A DNA stretch of 64,000 nucleotides from Micromonospora parathelypteridis (GTDB taxonomy: Bacteria; Actinomycetota; Actinomycetes; Mycobacteriales; Micromonosporaceae), in assembly GCF_014201145.1 (NCBI RefSeq), contig NZ_JACHDP010000001.1, positions 5,704,001-5,768,000 of the forward strand. The letters run 5' to 3'. The position numbers were made by a program, and so were the translations under genes. Positions 44,102 through 52,281 of this stretch are shown piece by piece; within the stretch, counting starts at the first letter, position 1, and the number at the start of each line of letters is the position of its first letter. Below the pieces are notes generated by a model that did not search any database, had not been told where the DNA came from, and worked only from the letters and a program-made list of their open reading frames with translations.

Positions 44102-44141
44102 AGGGAGTTTCTGCCGAAAGGGGTACCGGCAGAGTCCCCCA
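44102..44141 (+). promoter_or_regulatory. Shared cluster motif, copy C
   Basis: Reads AGGGAG-N3-CTGCCGAAAGGGGTA, then CCGGCAG and CCCCC. It aligns without gaps to four other copies in the cluster. Its near end is 74 bp upstream of the DUF2255 start. The inner half is a CTGCCG/CGGCAG dyad. Confidence 0.65.
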
Positions 44142-44209
44142 GCGCAGCTTCGAGCCGGGGACCGGCCGGTCAACAATGGTGCGGCGAGTGCTCGTGACCG
44201 TCGTCGGCG

Positions 44210-45043
44210 TCACTCTTGTGGGAAGTCGGTGCTGACGCTCAGCTCCTGCCAGGCCTCGAGCTCCGCGCGTTGGCTGTCGAGGGCATCGCCGATGACTTTC
44301 ACCGCGTCCGAGCCGAGCAGCAGCAGGGCCGGTGGATGGCCGGCTTCGACGGCGGTGATCAGGACTTTGGCGGCTTTGGCCGGGTCGCCGGGCTGGGTGC
44401 CGTGGGTGTTGTCGTTCTCCTTGCGACGCTTGCCGGCGGTAGCGGCGTAGTCGTTGATGACCGTGGCTGACTGGGTCAGCGACCGACCGGCGAAGTCGGT
44501 GCGGAAGGCGCCGGGCTCGATCGTGGTGACCCTGATCCCGAGCGGCTCGACCTCCTTGCGCAGCGTGGCGGACATGCCTTCGAGCGCTGCTTTGCTGGCG
44601 GAGTAGTAGCCGGAGCCGGGGTTGAAGGAGCGCGCTCCGATCGAGGAGATGTTCACGATCGTGCCACTGCGCCGCGTCCGCATGCCCGGAAGCACCGCCT
44701 TGATCACGTTTACCGCGCCGAAGAAGTTCGTGGCGAACAACTCCTGCACGTCGGTGTCAACGCCTTCTTCGACCGCCGCGCGGTAGCCGTAGCCGGCGTT
44801 GTTGACCAGCACGTCGATGCTGCCGAAACTGTCCTCGGCCTGCTCGACGGCGGCGGTGACCTGCGCCGGGTCGGTCACGTCCAGGGCGACGGCCAGAGCC
44901 GTTTCGGGGTGGCTGTCGGCGAGGTCCTTGACCGTGGACGCGTCGCGGGCGGTGACGACGGCGTTGTCGCCGCGGGCGAGAACCGCGTCGGCGAGGGCGC
45001 GGCCCAGGCCGCTGGAACAGCCGGTGATCAACCAGGTGGTCAT
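44210..45043 (-). CDS. Short-chain dehydrogenase/reductase
   Basis: 277 aa. The NAD(P) motif TGCSSGLG is at residues 8-15, NNAG follows (VLVNNAGYGYRAAV), and the catalytic Ser-Tyr-Lys is in NISSIGARSF and GYYSASKAALEG. It is a classical SDR; the substrate is unknown. It lies 17 bp after the zinc alcohol dehydrogenase and is probably cotranscribed with it. Confidence 0.92.
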   Translation of the reverse strand: MTTWLITGCSSGLGRALADAVLARGDNAVVTARDASTVKDLADSHPETALAVALDVTDPAQVTAAVEQAEDSFGSIDVLVNNAGYGYRAAVEEGVDTDVQELFATNFFGAVNVIKAVLPGMRTRRSGTIVNISSIGARSFNPGSGYYSASKAALEGMSATLRKEVEPLGIRVTTIEPGAFRTDFAGRSLTQSATVINDYAATAGKRRKENDNTHGTQPGDPAKAAKVLITAVEAGHPPALLLLGSDAVKVIGDALDSQRAELEAWQELSVSTDFPQE

Positions 45044-45060
45044 GTGGTTCCTCTCCGCGG

Positions 45061-46098
45061 TCAAACGCCGATGCGGACGAGCGCCTTGGTGGCGCGGCGG
45101 TCGATCATCGCGTCGTAGGCGTCCTTGATGTCGTCCAGGCCGGTTTCGTAGTCGAAGACCCGCCCTGGGTTGATCCGCCCGTGCAGGACGTCGTCGAGCA
45201 ACTCGGGGATGTAGCGGCGGGCCGGGGCGACACCGCCGCGCAGGCCGACGTTGTGGAAGATGACCGTTTGCAGCGGAACGGTGGAGTCGTGCGGTACCCC
45301 GACGGCGCCGACGATCGAGCCGACCCGGGCGATACCGAAGGCGGTGGCCATCGACTGGCCGGTGCCCACGCACTCGAGGGCGGCGTCGACGCCGAGTCCT
45401 CCGGTCATGTTCATGATCAGCTTGATGGCGTCGTCGCCGCGCTCGGCGATGATGTCGGTCGCGCCGAACTCCCGGGCGAGGGCTTGGCGGACCGGGTTAC
45501 GGCTCAGTGACATGATCCGCTCCGCGCCCAGACGCTTGGCCGCGATCACCGCGCACAGGCCCACCGCGCCGTCACCGACCACCGCGACGGTGTCTCCGGG
45601 CTTCACACCGGCACTGACGGCGGCGTGGTGCCCGGTGCACATCACATCCGACACAGCCACCAACGACTTCATCACCGCGTCGGAGTAGTCGCCGGAGGGC
45701 ACCTTGACCAACGTCGCATCGGCGTACGGAACCTTGACGTACTCGCCCTGGCCGCCGTCGACGCCGTGGTTGCCGAACGAACCGCCGTTGAGGCAGTTAC
45801 CGGTCCAGCCGGCCCGGCAGTTGGCGCAGGTGCCGTCGCAGAAGGTGAACGGCGCGACGACCAGATCCCCCGGCCGTACGGTGGTCACGTCAACGCCGAC
45901 CTGCTCGACAACCCCAATGAACTCGTGGCCGATCGGGCCCAGAGCGTGCGGGTTGACACCGCGGTAGTACCACAGGTCGGAGCCGCAAACGCAGCCGAGC
46001 GTGACGCGCACGACCGCGTCCGTGGGTTTCTCGAGGTGCGGGTCAGGGCGCTCGCCGACGGTGATGTCGCCAGGGCCGCCGTAGAGAGTGGCACGCAT
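45061..46098 (-). CDS. Zinc-dependent alcohol dehydrogenase
   Basis: 345 aa, medium-chain dehydrogenase. The catalytic zinc region GCVCGSDLWYYRG and GHEFIGVVEQVG, the structural zinc Cys cluster in FCDGTCANCRAGWTGNC, and the Rossmann motif VAVVGDGAVGLCAVIAA are present. It resembles the zinc-binding threonine/sorbitol-type dehydrogenases of unknown substrate. It is divergent from an XRE regulator; copy D of the shared motif lies in the 254-bp gap. Confidence 0.93.
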   Translation of the reverse strand: MRATLYGGPGDITVGERPDPHLEKPTDAVVRVTLGCVCGSDLWYYRGVNPHALGPIGHEFIGVVEQVGVDVTTVRPGDLVVAPFTFCDGTCANCRAGWTGNCLNGGSFGNHGVDGGQGEYVKVPYADATLVKVPSGDYSDAVMKSLVAVSDVMCTGHHAAVSAGVKPGDTVAVVGDGAVGLCAVIAAKRLGAERIMSLSRNPVRQALAREFGATDIIAERGDDAIKLIMNMTGGLGVDAALECVGTGQSMATAFGIARVGSIVGAVGVPHDSTVPLQTVIFHNVGLRGGVAPARRYIPELLDDVLHGRINPGRVFDYETGLDDIKDAYDAMIDRRATKALVRIGV

Positions 46099-46282
46099 GA
46101 TGAGTTCTTTCCTCGTAGTGATGGAGAGCGCCTGCCCCGATCGGGGCGGCTTATGACGGCGAACAGCAGGAGCGTGGAGGACATCAGCGTGTAATCGGTG
46201 ATGACCCACTGCAGGTTGGAGAGGGTGCCGACAAAATTCCGGTTGGATCTCCTTGTCCAGGAAACTCCTGCCGCTGGCGAGC

Positions 46283-46322
46283 AGGGAGGCACCACGTAAA
46301 GGGGTAATGACAGTGACCCTTT
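46283..46322 (+). promoter_or_regulatory. Shared cluster motif, copy D
   Basis: AGGGAG starts 70 bp before the XRE start on the same strand. The core AAAGGGGTA is followed by ACAG and ACCCTTT, so AAAGGG and CCCTTT make a perfect dyad. It could control both the divergent dehydrogenase operon and the regulator itself. Confidence 0.65.
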
Positions 46323-50850: not shown

Positions 50851-50910
50851 CAGCCCTCCCTGTACCAAATGCTAGGTGAATGACTCGTCGCGAGTCGTGG
50901 ACCAGCAAAA

Positions 50911-50958
50911 TGCTGCCCCGGACCCGGCCCCAGAACCGCTGCCGGGTCCGGGGCAGCA
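50911..50958 (-). terminator. Perfect 18-bp hairpin after Tat-AKR 51017
   Basis: The arms TGCTGCCCCGGACCCGGC and GCCGGGTCCGGGGCAGCA are separated by 12 nt. It lies 58 bp downstream of the AKR gene and before the flavodoxin gene, so it probably separates the two transcripts. Confidence 0.8.
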
Positions 50959-51016
50959 CACTGAAGCGGGGCAGACCGGGGGGCATCGCGGCCTCCCGGC
51001 CCGCCGTCGGTGTGTG

Positions 51017-52171
51017 TCAGCGCGGCAGGGGCGCCTCGATGCCCGACAGTGCGAGCACTCCCGCTGGCAACCGCTCGCCGTGGATCTGGACCGCGTCGAG
51101 CGCGGCGGTGAACTCGCGCAGCTCGTCGGGGGTGAAGGTGACCTCTTCGGTGCCGATGTTCTCCAGCAGGTGCGAGGTGCGGGTGGCGCTCGGGATCGGC
51201 ACGATCCACGGCTTCTGCGCCTGCAGCCAGGCCAGCGACAACTGTCCGGGCGTCGCGCCCTTGCGGACGGCCCACTGCGACAGCAGTTGCACCAGGGGCA
51301 TGTTGGCGGTCATGTTCTCCGGCGAGTTGCGCGGCACGAACGCACGGAAGTCCCCTTGGGCGAAACGGGTGTACGGGTTGATCGTGCCGGTGGTGAAGCC
51401 GTAGGCCAGGGGGGCCCAACACACCAATCCGATCCCCAACTCTTCACACAGGGGCAGGATCTGCTGCTCGGCGCCGCGCCACATCAGGTTGTACTCGTTC
51501 TGGATCGCCGCCAGCGGCTGCACCGAGTGCGCACGGCGTACTGTCAGCGGGCCCGGCTCGGACAACCCCCAGTGCCGCACCTTCCCGGCCCTGATCAGGT
51601 CCTTGACCGCCCCGGCCACGTCCTCGATCGGCACCGCGGGGTCCACGCGGTGCTGGTACAGCAGGTCGATGTGGTCGGTCCTCAGGCGTCCGAGCATGCC
51701 GTCGACGGCGCGCTTGATGTGCTCCGGGCGGCTGTTCAGACCCGGGAGTTGCTGGCCGGTGTCCGGGTCGATGTTCCAGCCGAATTTCGACGCGATCACC
51801 ACCCGGTCCCGCACCCGCCGCAGGGCCTCACCGACGATGCGCTCGGACTCGAACGGCCCGTACGCCTCGGCTGTGTCGAACAGGGTGATGCCCTGGTCAA
51901 CGGCCGTCCGAATGATCCTGATCATGTCCTCGCGGCTGCTGACCGGCCCATACAGCCTCCCGGTCATGGTCTGGCAACCCAGCCCGATGCTCGAGACCTT
52001 GAGGCGGCCCAGCCGGCGGCGGCTGGTCAGCGTGGTGACCTTTCCAACCGTGCCGTCACGGCCGGCGGCCGACGCGGGAGCGGGACCGGCGAGGCCGGCC
52101 ACTGTGGGAGTTGCGGCTAGGGCGGCCGCACCCACCAGAAACCGGCGACGGCTGCTGTTGTTGTCAGACAT
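51017..52171 (-). CDS. Tat-exported aldo/keto reductase
   Basis: 384 aa. The Tat signal SSRRRFLVGAAALAATPTVA is followed by a signal-peptidase-I-type site (PASAAG). The AKR domain has Asp/Tyr in LFDTAEAYGPFESERIVG, Lys in VVIASKFGWN, His in LLYQHRVDPA and PIPSATRTSHLLENIG. It is the paralog of 48466-49644. They differ in anchoring: this one lacks the lipobox Cys. Promoter motif B sits 70 bp upstream. Confidence 0.9.
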   Translation of the reverse strand: MSDNNSSRRRFLVGAAALAATPTVAGLAGPAPASAAGRDGTVGKVTTLTSRRRLGRLKVSSIGLGCQTMTGRLYGPVSSREDMIRIIRTAVDQGITLFDTAEAYGPFESERIVGEALRRVRDRVVIASKFGWNIDPDTGQQLPGLNSRPEHIKRAVDGMLGRLRTDHIDLLYQHRVDPAVPIEDVAGAVKDLIRAGKVRHWGLSEPGPLTVRRAHSVQPLAAIQNEYNLMWRGAEQQILPLCEELGIGLVCWAPLAYGFTTGTINPYTRFAQGDFRAFVPRNSPENMTANMPLVQLLSQWAVRKGATPGQLSLAWLQAQKPWIVPIPSATRTSHLLENIGTEEVTFTPDELREFTAALDAVQIHGERLPAGVLALSGIEAPLPR

Positions 52172-52240
52172 TGAGCACCTTCTCGTTGTCGCGACAGGAG
52201 CAGGTTTCGCAGTCCCATGCAACCCCCGGTTGCGACGATC

Positions 52241-52281
52241 AGGGAGCCCCTGCTGAGAGGGGTAACGACAGCAACCCCCAC
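52241..52281 (+). promoter_or_regulatory. Shared cluster motif, copy B
   Basis: Shares its first 24 bases with copy A, then ACGACAG and AACCCCCAC. GGGGT and ACCCC form a dyad with 10 bp between. Its near end is 70 bp upstream of the AKR ATG. Confidence 0.7.

Follow-up and report, generated by a model that had tools for sequence, protein, structure and literature searches.

A predicted double-dyad operator of MmyB-like regulators at five promoters of a reductase gene cluster in Micromonospora parathelypteridis

Five promoter regions within 8 kb of the Micromonospora parathelypteridis genome carry copies of one 37-bp site, and these are predicted, with a probability of about 0.85, to be operators of the two MmyB-like (MLTR) regulators encoded in the same cluster, XRE1 and XRE2, each copy placed according to the two-promoter model proposed below. 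All positions refer to the window, the whole stretch of 64,000 nucleotides from contig NZ_JACHDP010000001.1 that was analysed, and bases of the site are numbered 1-37. On the plus strand lie copy C (44102..44138; positions 19-37, with dyad centre 28, at 44120-44138) upstream of the minus-strand gene of a DUF2255 protein, copy D (46283..46319) between XRE1 (plus strand) and the gene of a zinc-dependent alcohol dehydrogenase (ADH; minus strand), copy A (49714..49750) upstream of the aldo-keto reductase (AKR) gene AKR_A, and copy B (52241..52277) upstream of AKR_B, while copy E (48186..48222, minus strand) lies upstream of XRE2. An earlier reading of the letters without database searches (the sequence-only reading) had placed all five exactly, and the consensus it proposed is matched with 0 mismatches at C and D, 1 at A and at B and 2 at E, with 0 matches in 100 shuffles. 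A genome-wide mismatch scan returned exactly these five at up to three mismatches in the 7,014,531 bp of the single contig and 0 for the reversed pattern, so that a chance repeat is ruled out. A looser consensus had no specificity in this genome (7 matches versus 8 in the control); it picked up four window copies (D was missed), the site of one MLTR paralog (3639782, minus strand) and two further matches. Spacing and orientation are as regular as had been claimed: the ATG of XRE1 is 70 bp from the first base of D and the GTG of XRE2 71 bp from that of E, and on the enzyme side the AKR starts are both 70 bp from A and B, and the possible GTG codons of the DUF2255 gene 71 or 74 bp from C. Copies D and E are oriented towards the regulator gene, and A, B and C (and also D) away from the enzyme gene. 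As had been noted, A and B do not differ over their 24 leading bases; these two copies are not independent, since AKR_A and AKR_B are paralogs (71% identical).

XRE1 (46353..47231, plus strand) and XRE2 (47273..48151, minus strand), both of 292 residues and 48% identical to each other, are MmyB-like (MLTR) regulators by domain assignment. The N-terminal XRE-type helix-turn-helix (HTH) matches HTH_31 with 38.1 and 32.3 bits (Pfam cut-off 27), and the C-terminal ligand-binding domain matches MLTR_LBD (PF17765) with 183.2 and 177.2 bits (cut-off 26.3). A structure model of XRE1 (mean pLDDT 83.9) has its recognition helix at residues 49-56 and finds MltR (3pxp) as its top Foldseek match (E 2.4e-10), the whole-chain superposition being loose (TM 0.48, rmsd 14.3), and a profile of 16 relatives compared with 3pxp gave an E of 9.7e-11. 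XRE1 also shows the MmyB-like trait of a regulator-dehydrogenase pairing, being divergent from the zinc ADH gene across copy D; for XRE2, the comparison with the sister species revealed no conserved divergent gene. Glu50, Thr53 and Arg54 are common to both proteins, residue 49 being Val in one and Leu in the other, which would make cross-binding of the copies by both paralogs possible.

The motif is not local, as it precedes many related MLTR genes in other actinobacteria. In 300 genomes of the same taxonomic family, a match is present in 56, at 96 places versus 21 for the reversed pattern (rows counted by hand). Of the 96 distinct sites, 41 lie within 250 bp upstream of a same-strand MLTR gene, an undercount because a few MLTR starts are cut by locus ends, and 28 of the 41 have their centre 52-53 bp from the start. 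A second set was chosen by protein, namely MLTR loci from named genomes picked irrespective of the motif (the 80 best among 461 relatives), of which 79 could be scored after one with a short upstream region had been dropped. A position weight matrix (PWM) score of at least 12 is reached in 46 of the 79, versus none of 308 control windows and none of 237 shuffled upstream regions (shuffles that keep single-base composition only), and in 44 of 77 upon removal of L126 and L129, whose sites are also in the training set. All 46 sites over the threshold are on the plus strand, and in 38 of them 51-54 bp separate the centre from the start codon; across all 79, the best match has this place and strand in 51, including 13 of the 33 that score below 12. 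The genera over the threshold include Arthrobacter, Streptomyces, Kribbella, Rhodococcus and Amycolatopsis, and a class-wide scan found a sequence match at up to three mismatches in 26 of 394 genomes, the own genome included. At three loci (L061, L062 and L063) one MLTR gene is flanked by two sites about 1 kb apart, both of the variant GGTGTA...GCACC, which would fit recognition of the two sites by a single regulator. Bins labelled Burkholderiales, Chloroflexi and Solirubrobacteraceae (L181, L185, L200) also contain MLTR genes preceded by the motif at 53-56 bp, for which transfer, deep age and mis-binning are candidate explanations.

The evidence that MLTR proteins themselves bind the motif is strong but not final and comes from residue-base covariation that falls on residues 50 and 53 of the recognition helix. 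Mutual information was computed for 96 regulator-site pairs, leaving out L126, L129 and two more without a parsable helix, over the first 275 protein columns (XRE1 numbering) and the 37 site positions. The top five of the resulting 10,175 residue-base pairs are T53-35, E50-34, E50-19, E50-20 and T53-21. Both residues fall within helix 49-56 of the XRE1 model, at places that face the DNA in the lambda and 434 repressors. Glu50 occurs with G19 in 44 of 52 cases and Asp50 with C19 in 36 of 41. Restricting the analysis to the protein-chosen set places the five pairs at ranks 1, 2, 3, 5 and 7, or at 1, 2, 4, 10 and 14 if only scores of at least 12 are used.

The sequence-only reading described a single motif of about 40 bp holding several dyads. 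The conservation of the sequence and the dyads are real, but the site is composed of two overlapping dyads (centres 28 and 20.5) between two promoters, and the inverted repeats belong to two systems, CTGCCG/CGGCAG and CCCTGTC/GACAGGG being centred on 20.5 and AAAGGG/CCCTTT on 28. Complementarity of bases 21 and 35 is seen in 68 of the 76 family sites used (GC 60, TA 8, other 8), which were taken from the 96 for having at most two mismatches or lying no more than 80 bp from an MLTR start, and in all 45 sites from named genomes scoring at least 12 (GC 41, TA 4), which indicates an operator dyad centred on 28. In the longer dyad, GGGAG...CTG pairs with CAG...CCC. Two further elements mirror each other exactly about 20.5: on the regulator side TAnnnT occupies 59-64, and on the enzyme side TTnnnT occupies -18 to -23 of the other strand. 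With 6 ambiguous sites set aside, TAnnnT is exact in 34 of 38 MLTR-adjacent sites versus none of 32 enzyme-only ones (36 and 1 with displacement by one base tolerated), and TTnnnT in 29 of 38 and 28 of 32, respectively. Elsewhere in the flanks the background is 3 of 2590 positions for TAnnnT and 6 of 3570 for TTnnnT, and in the named set scoring at least 12 the exact elements are found in 33 of 45 and 34 of 45 sites. In the window, the predicted -10 element of XRE1 is TAACCT (46341..46346, plus strand), which ends 7 bp before the ATG, and that of XRE2 is TAACGT (48159..48164, minus strand). The distance of 7 or 8 bp between TAnnnT and the start codon of these two genes suggests that their mRNAs are leaderless. 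The -10-like elements on the enzyme side, all on the minus strand, are TTTGCT for the DUF2255 unit (44078..44083), TTTCCT towards the unit of ADH and a short-chain dehydrogenase (SDR; 46259..46264), and TTGCAT for both AKR_A (49690..49695) and AKR_B (52217..52222); all these window elements, those of XRE1 and XRE2 included, were read from the sequence as members of conserved classes. By eye, an AGGTTTRAAA-like element starting about 6-9 bp past the end of CCC was seen in several enzyme-only sites (L023, L031, L033, L047, L054 and L082), with a similar stretch at copy A and a weaker one at copy B.

In the cI repressor of lambda and the repressor of phage 434, HTH dimers bind dyads whose outer bases are read by recognition-helix residues, and the position for activation is near -42. 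Dyad reading and the predicted activator position would be alike in the present case, whereas the sequence, the ligand domain and the divergent reductase targets differ. The 19-bp dyad O1 (positions 19-37, centre 28, GGKGTA-CTG-R-CAG-nn-CMCC) is proposed to have its outer bases read by residues 50 and 53, and the mirror arm GGGAGTCnCTG would form the longer dyad centred on 20.5, probably holding a second dimer at O2. The site would thereby replace the -35 box between two back-to-back promoters, a regulator promoter with a TAnnnT -10 element and a leaderless mRNA, and an enzyme-unit promoter with the -10-like TTnnnT. With the predicted start points as reference, O1 would be at about -43 for the regulator promoter and O2 at about -43 for the enzyme promoter, where class II activators, among them lambda cI at PRM, bind. 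An operator centre near -42 in place of -35 fits the predicted -10 elements in its geometry, the start points being predicted only. Ligand-bound regulator would most likely activate the enzyme promoter via cooperative binding to O1 and O2, and also adjust its own promoter; the ligand may be a small carbonyl or acyl compound on which the reductases act, acyl or furan-type ligands being a trait of MmyB-like regulators, and copies A-E could be used by XRE1, XRE2 or both. The sequence-only reading had proposed one operator, bound by the two paralogous regulators and controlling these and the reductases. This is supported by the domains, the placement, the covariation, the divergent enzymes and the -10-like elements, and is amended in that there are two dyads and the motif is not local.

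Because of the class II position, the missing -35 boxes and the off-consensus -10 element of the enzyme promoters, activation is judged the more probable mode of action. Repression is a serious alternative of lower probability: the regulator would bind the same operator, and dimers at O1 and O2 would block both promoters until ligand or damage releases them. The site does cover, by position, the -35 region of both predicted promoters, and in Corynebacterium glutamicum the XRE regulator MsrR, which likewise sits between divergent genes, keeps the two repressed until Cys62 is oxidised (PMC7532634, partial text), a likeness at the XRE level. However, the absence of a recognisable -35 box and the off-consensus -10 element are as in activator-dependent promoters, XRE1 is free of cysteine, and the accessible text of PMC10717218 presents MmyB as acting positively.

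Recognition of the motif by another factor, or its service as a promoter element for a sigma factor, so that it would track MLTR genes by neighbourhood only, is improbable. Covariation can stem from shared ancestry and fades under strong down-weighting, and GGGGTA resembles a sigma-B-type -10 element; but the strongest covariation is on recognition-helix residues and symmetric bases, the element precedes MLTR genes in many genera, and TAnnnT sits some 35 bp further on, adjoining the start codon. Still less likely is that the copies are alike through gene duplication only and have no operator function. AKR_A and AKR_B, and XRE1 and XRE2, are indeed paralogs, yet the motif is nearly intact at D and B while parts of the flanks diverge between sister species, and it stands before unrelated genes (AKR, ADH, DUF2255 and major facilitator superfamily, MFS) and occurs in many genera; this explanation is already largely refuted by the protein-chosen loci, the sister comparison and the split of the -10-like elements between site classes. 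An RNA element in the gene leaders (riboswitch or attenuator), which the inverted repeats might suggest, is highly improbable, as the motif lies upstream of the predicted start points and takes opposite strands at different genes; none of the Rfam families reached its gathering score in 43500-53000.

Several results weigh against the operator reading or restrict it. In the protein-chosen set 33 of 79 MLTR genes score below 12, and since this set represents the nearest 80 of 461 relatives, the whole MLTR family need not share the operator. In the own genome, only four of the ten MLTR genes are preceded by a correctly placed site, including a weak one (L091, 9.7 bits). The covariation is sensitive to sampling: with family sites only (37 sequences, effective number 8.3) the five pairs drop to ranks 44-1445, under 60% weighting (effective number 11) they rank 8, 11, 28, 31 and 1447, and on a tree of the ligand domain 9 independent Glu/Asp contrasts show base 19 changed as predicted in 6, unchanged in 2 and otherwise in 1. 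O2 amounts to no more than a good half-site. In the enzyme-side hexamer, T occupies the position at which actinobacterial -10 elements normally have A, so that TTnnnT may not be a -10 box. Beyond copy E, neither the enzyme-side element nor the small open reading frame (ORF) is conserved in the sister species, and roughly every second divergent ORF falls outside the enzyme families encountered here, in part owing to spurious ORFs.

In the sister species, the corresponding locus (L046) contains counterparts of C, D, E and B, and its XRE, ADH, DUF2255, flavodoxin, AKR_B, AKR3 and AKR4 proteins are 89-98% identical. One base differs in each of C, D and B, whose flanks, in parts and for D and B, have changed to a much greater extent; at copy E several bases are changed. 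Because the enzyme-side element at E is not conserved, this copy probably serves XRE2 alone. The small ORF beside it (48302-48454) was discarded, as only 15 of its residues match in the sister species. A counterpart of copy A was not found in the sister locus, which keeps AKR_A as a separate copy only in the form of a 37-residue fragment beside XRE2 (L046:9082-9192), so that the target gene and its operator seem to have been lost together.

Reductases and dehydrogenases are the largest class of targets and account for roughly half of the divergent ORFs. Beyond 74 family sites, the window's own copies included, the divergent ORFs include 27 AKR, 10 zinc ADH, 7 DUF2255, 2 MFS, 2 CMD and 2 flavodoxin ORFs, and beyond 59 sites from named genomes 17 ADH, 7 AKR, 5 MFS, 3 SDR and 3 cupin ORFs. 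The share of AKR, ADH and SDR thus amounts to 37 of 74 and 27 of 59, respectively, if no ORF matches two families; the family set uses 74 of 75 divergent ORFs (one overlapping duplicate was taken out), and both counts include spurious ORFs where no divergent gene exists. The sequence-only reading had suggested a redox regulon, a term that fits the type of the target enzymes only: XRE1 has no cysteine and XRE2 a single one (Cys92). XRE1 thus lacks the reactive cysteine of thiol-based redox regulators of the MsrR type, and for this reason redox sensing by thiols is unlikely for XRE1.

Actinomycetes encode many MmyB-family regulators, whose genes are found next to antibiotic-related and reductase genes. 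According to the available part of the description of the MmyB/MltR family (PF17765), it has over 1000 members, with 16 paralogs in S. coelicolor, and the regulator genes are divergent from SDR or medium-chain dehydrogenase/reductase (MDR) genes, for which the figure 15/16 is given (Xu et al., 2012, PMC3406030). The divergence from SDR and MDR genes is thus already known, whereas the operator itself was not found in the literature searched, some of it available only in part. The present regulators resemble this family in their XRE-type HTH and their PAS-like ligand domain, and XRE1 also in having 3pxp as the best match of its model and in the divergent dehydrogenase gene. Unlike in that description, which in the accessible text gives no operator for the divergent pairs, a single operator type would here act at five promoters for two regulators within 8 kb, and AKR and DUF2255 units would be targets without an adjacent regulator gene (PMC3406030). 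The B-boxes of MmyB in the methylenomycin cluster, mentioned in the same text, are likewise pseudo-palindromic sites of an MLTR-family regulator, a likeness by description. MsrR of C. glutamicum, as far as its report could be consulted, is similar in being an XRE regulator between divergent promoters that controls itself and its neighbour, but differs in sensing oxidation via Cys62, for which XRE1 has no cysteine, and in targeting an MFS pump and a sulfurtransferase (PMC7532634). A computed catalogue of XRE-family motifs upstream of XRE genes comprises 223 clusters, with support from electrophoretic mobility shift assays (EMSA) for 9 of 10, and the present motif, likewise upstream of XRE genes, may be among them; the accessible text does not mention MLTR targets or residue-base covariation, as found here (PMC12565409). 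A literature search, which had most subscription journals outside its reach, returned no described operator of this kind for divergent regulator-reductase pairs, and the matches listed by a text search for motif words were unrelated by title. It is tentatively suggested, at somewhat less than even odds, that a large part of the MLTR family shares one DNA code (Glu50 for G19, Asp50 for C19, and residue 53 setting bases 21/35) and one double-sided promoter design, in which dimers on overlapping dyads replace both -35 boxes and the TTnnnT promoter depends on the regulator, a design also used at stand-alone reductase promoters without a regulator gene. A defined operator with a residue-to-base code would make MmyB-family regulons predictable from sequence, and the operator turns the question of regulator targets and ligands into a direct binding or reporter experiment.

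The remaining genes of the cluster are all on the minus strand. Copy C likely serves a unit of DUF2255 (43630..44031, start codon ambiguous), AKR3 (42727..43614), which is probably co-transcribed with it, and AKR4 (41677..42660), possibly co-transcribed in turn, the latter two being ORFs with similarity to the other AKRs. Copy D likely serves XRE1 as well as the zinc ADH of the MDR type (45061..46098) and the SDR (44210..45043, start read from the sequence), copy E XRE2, copy A AKR_A (48466..49644), and copy B AKR_B (51017..52171), perhaps together with a Flavodoxin_4 protein (50140..50868) that may be read through from AKR_B; membership in these operons is predicted, and DUF2255, ADH, SDR, AKR_A, AKR_B and the flavodoxin were assigned by a domain scan of genes between 43.6 and 52.2 kb. 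By eye, the N-termini of AKR_A, AKR_B and the flavodoxin appear to be twin-arginine-like signal sequences, with lipobox-like cysteines in AKR_A and the flavodoxin, and export of NAD(P)H-type reductases would be odd. The plus-strand ORFs past copies A and B (49799-50100 and 52350-52700) resemble, again by eye, decayed gene remnants.

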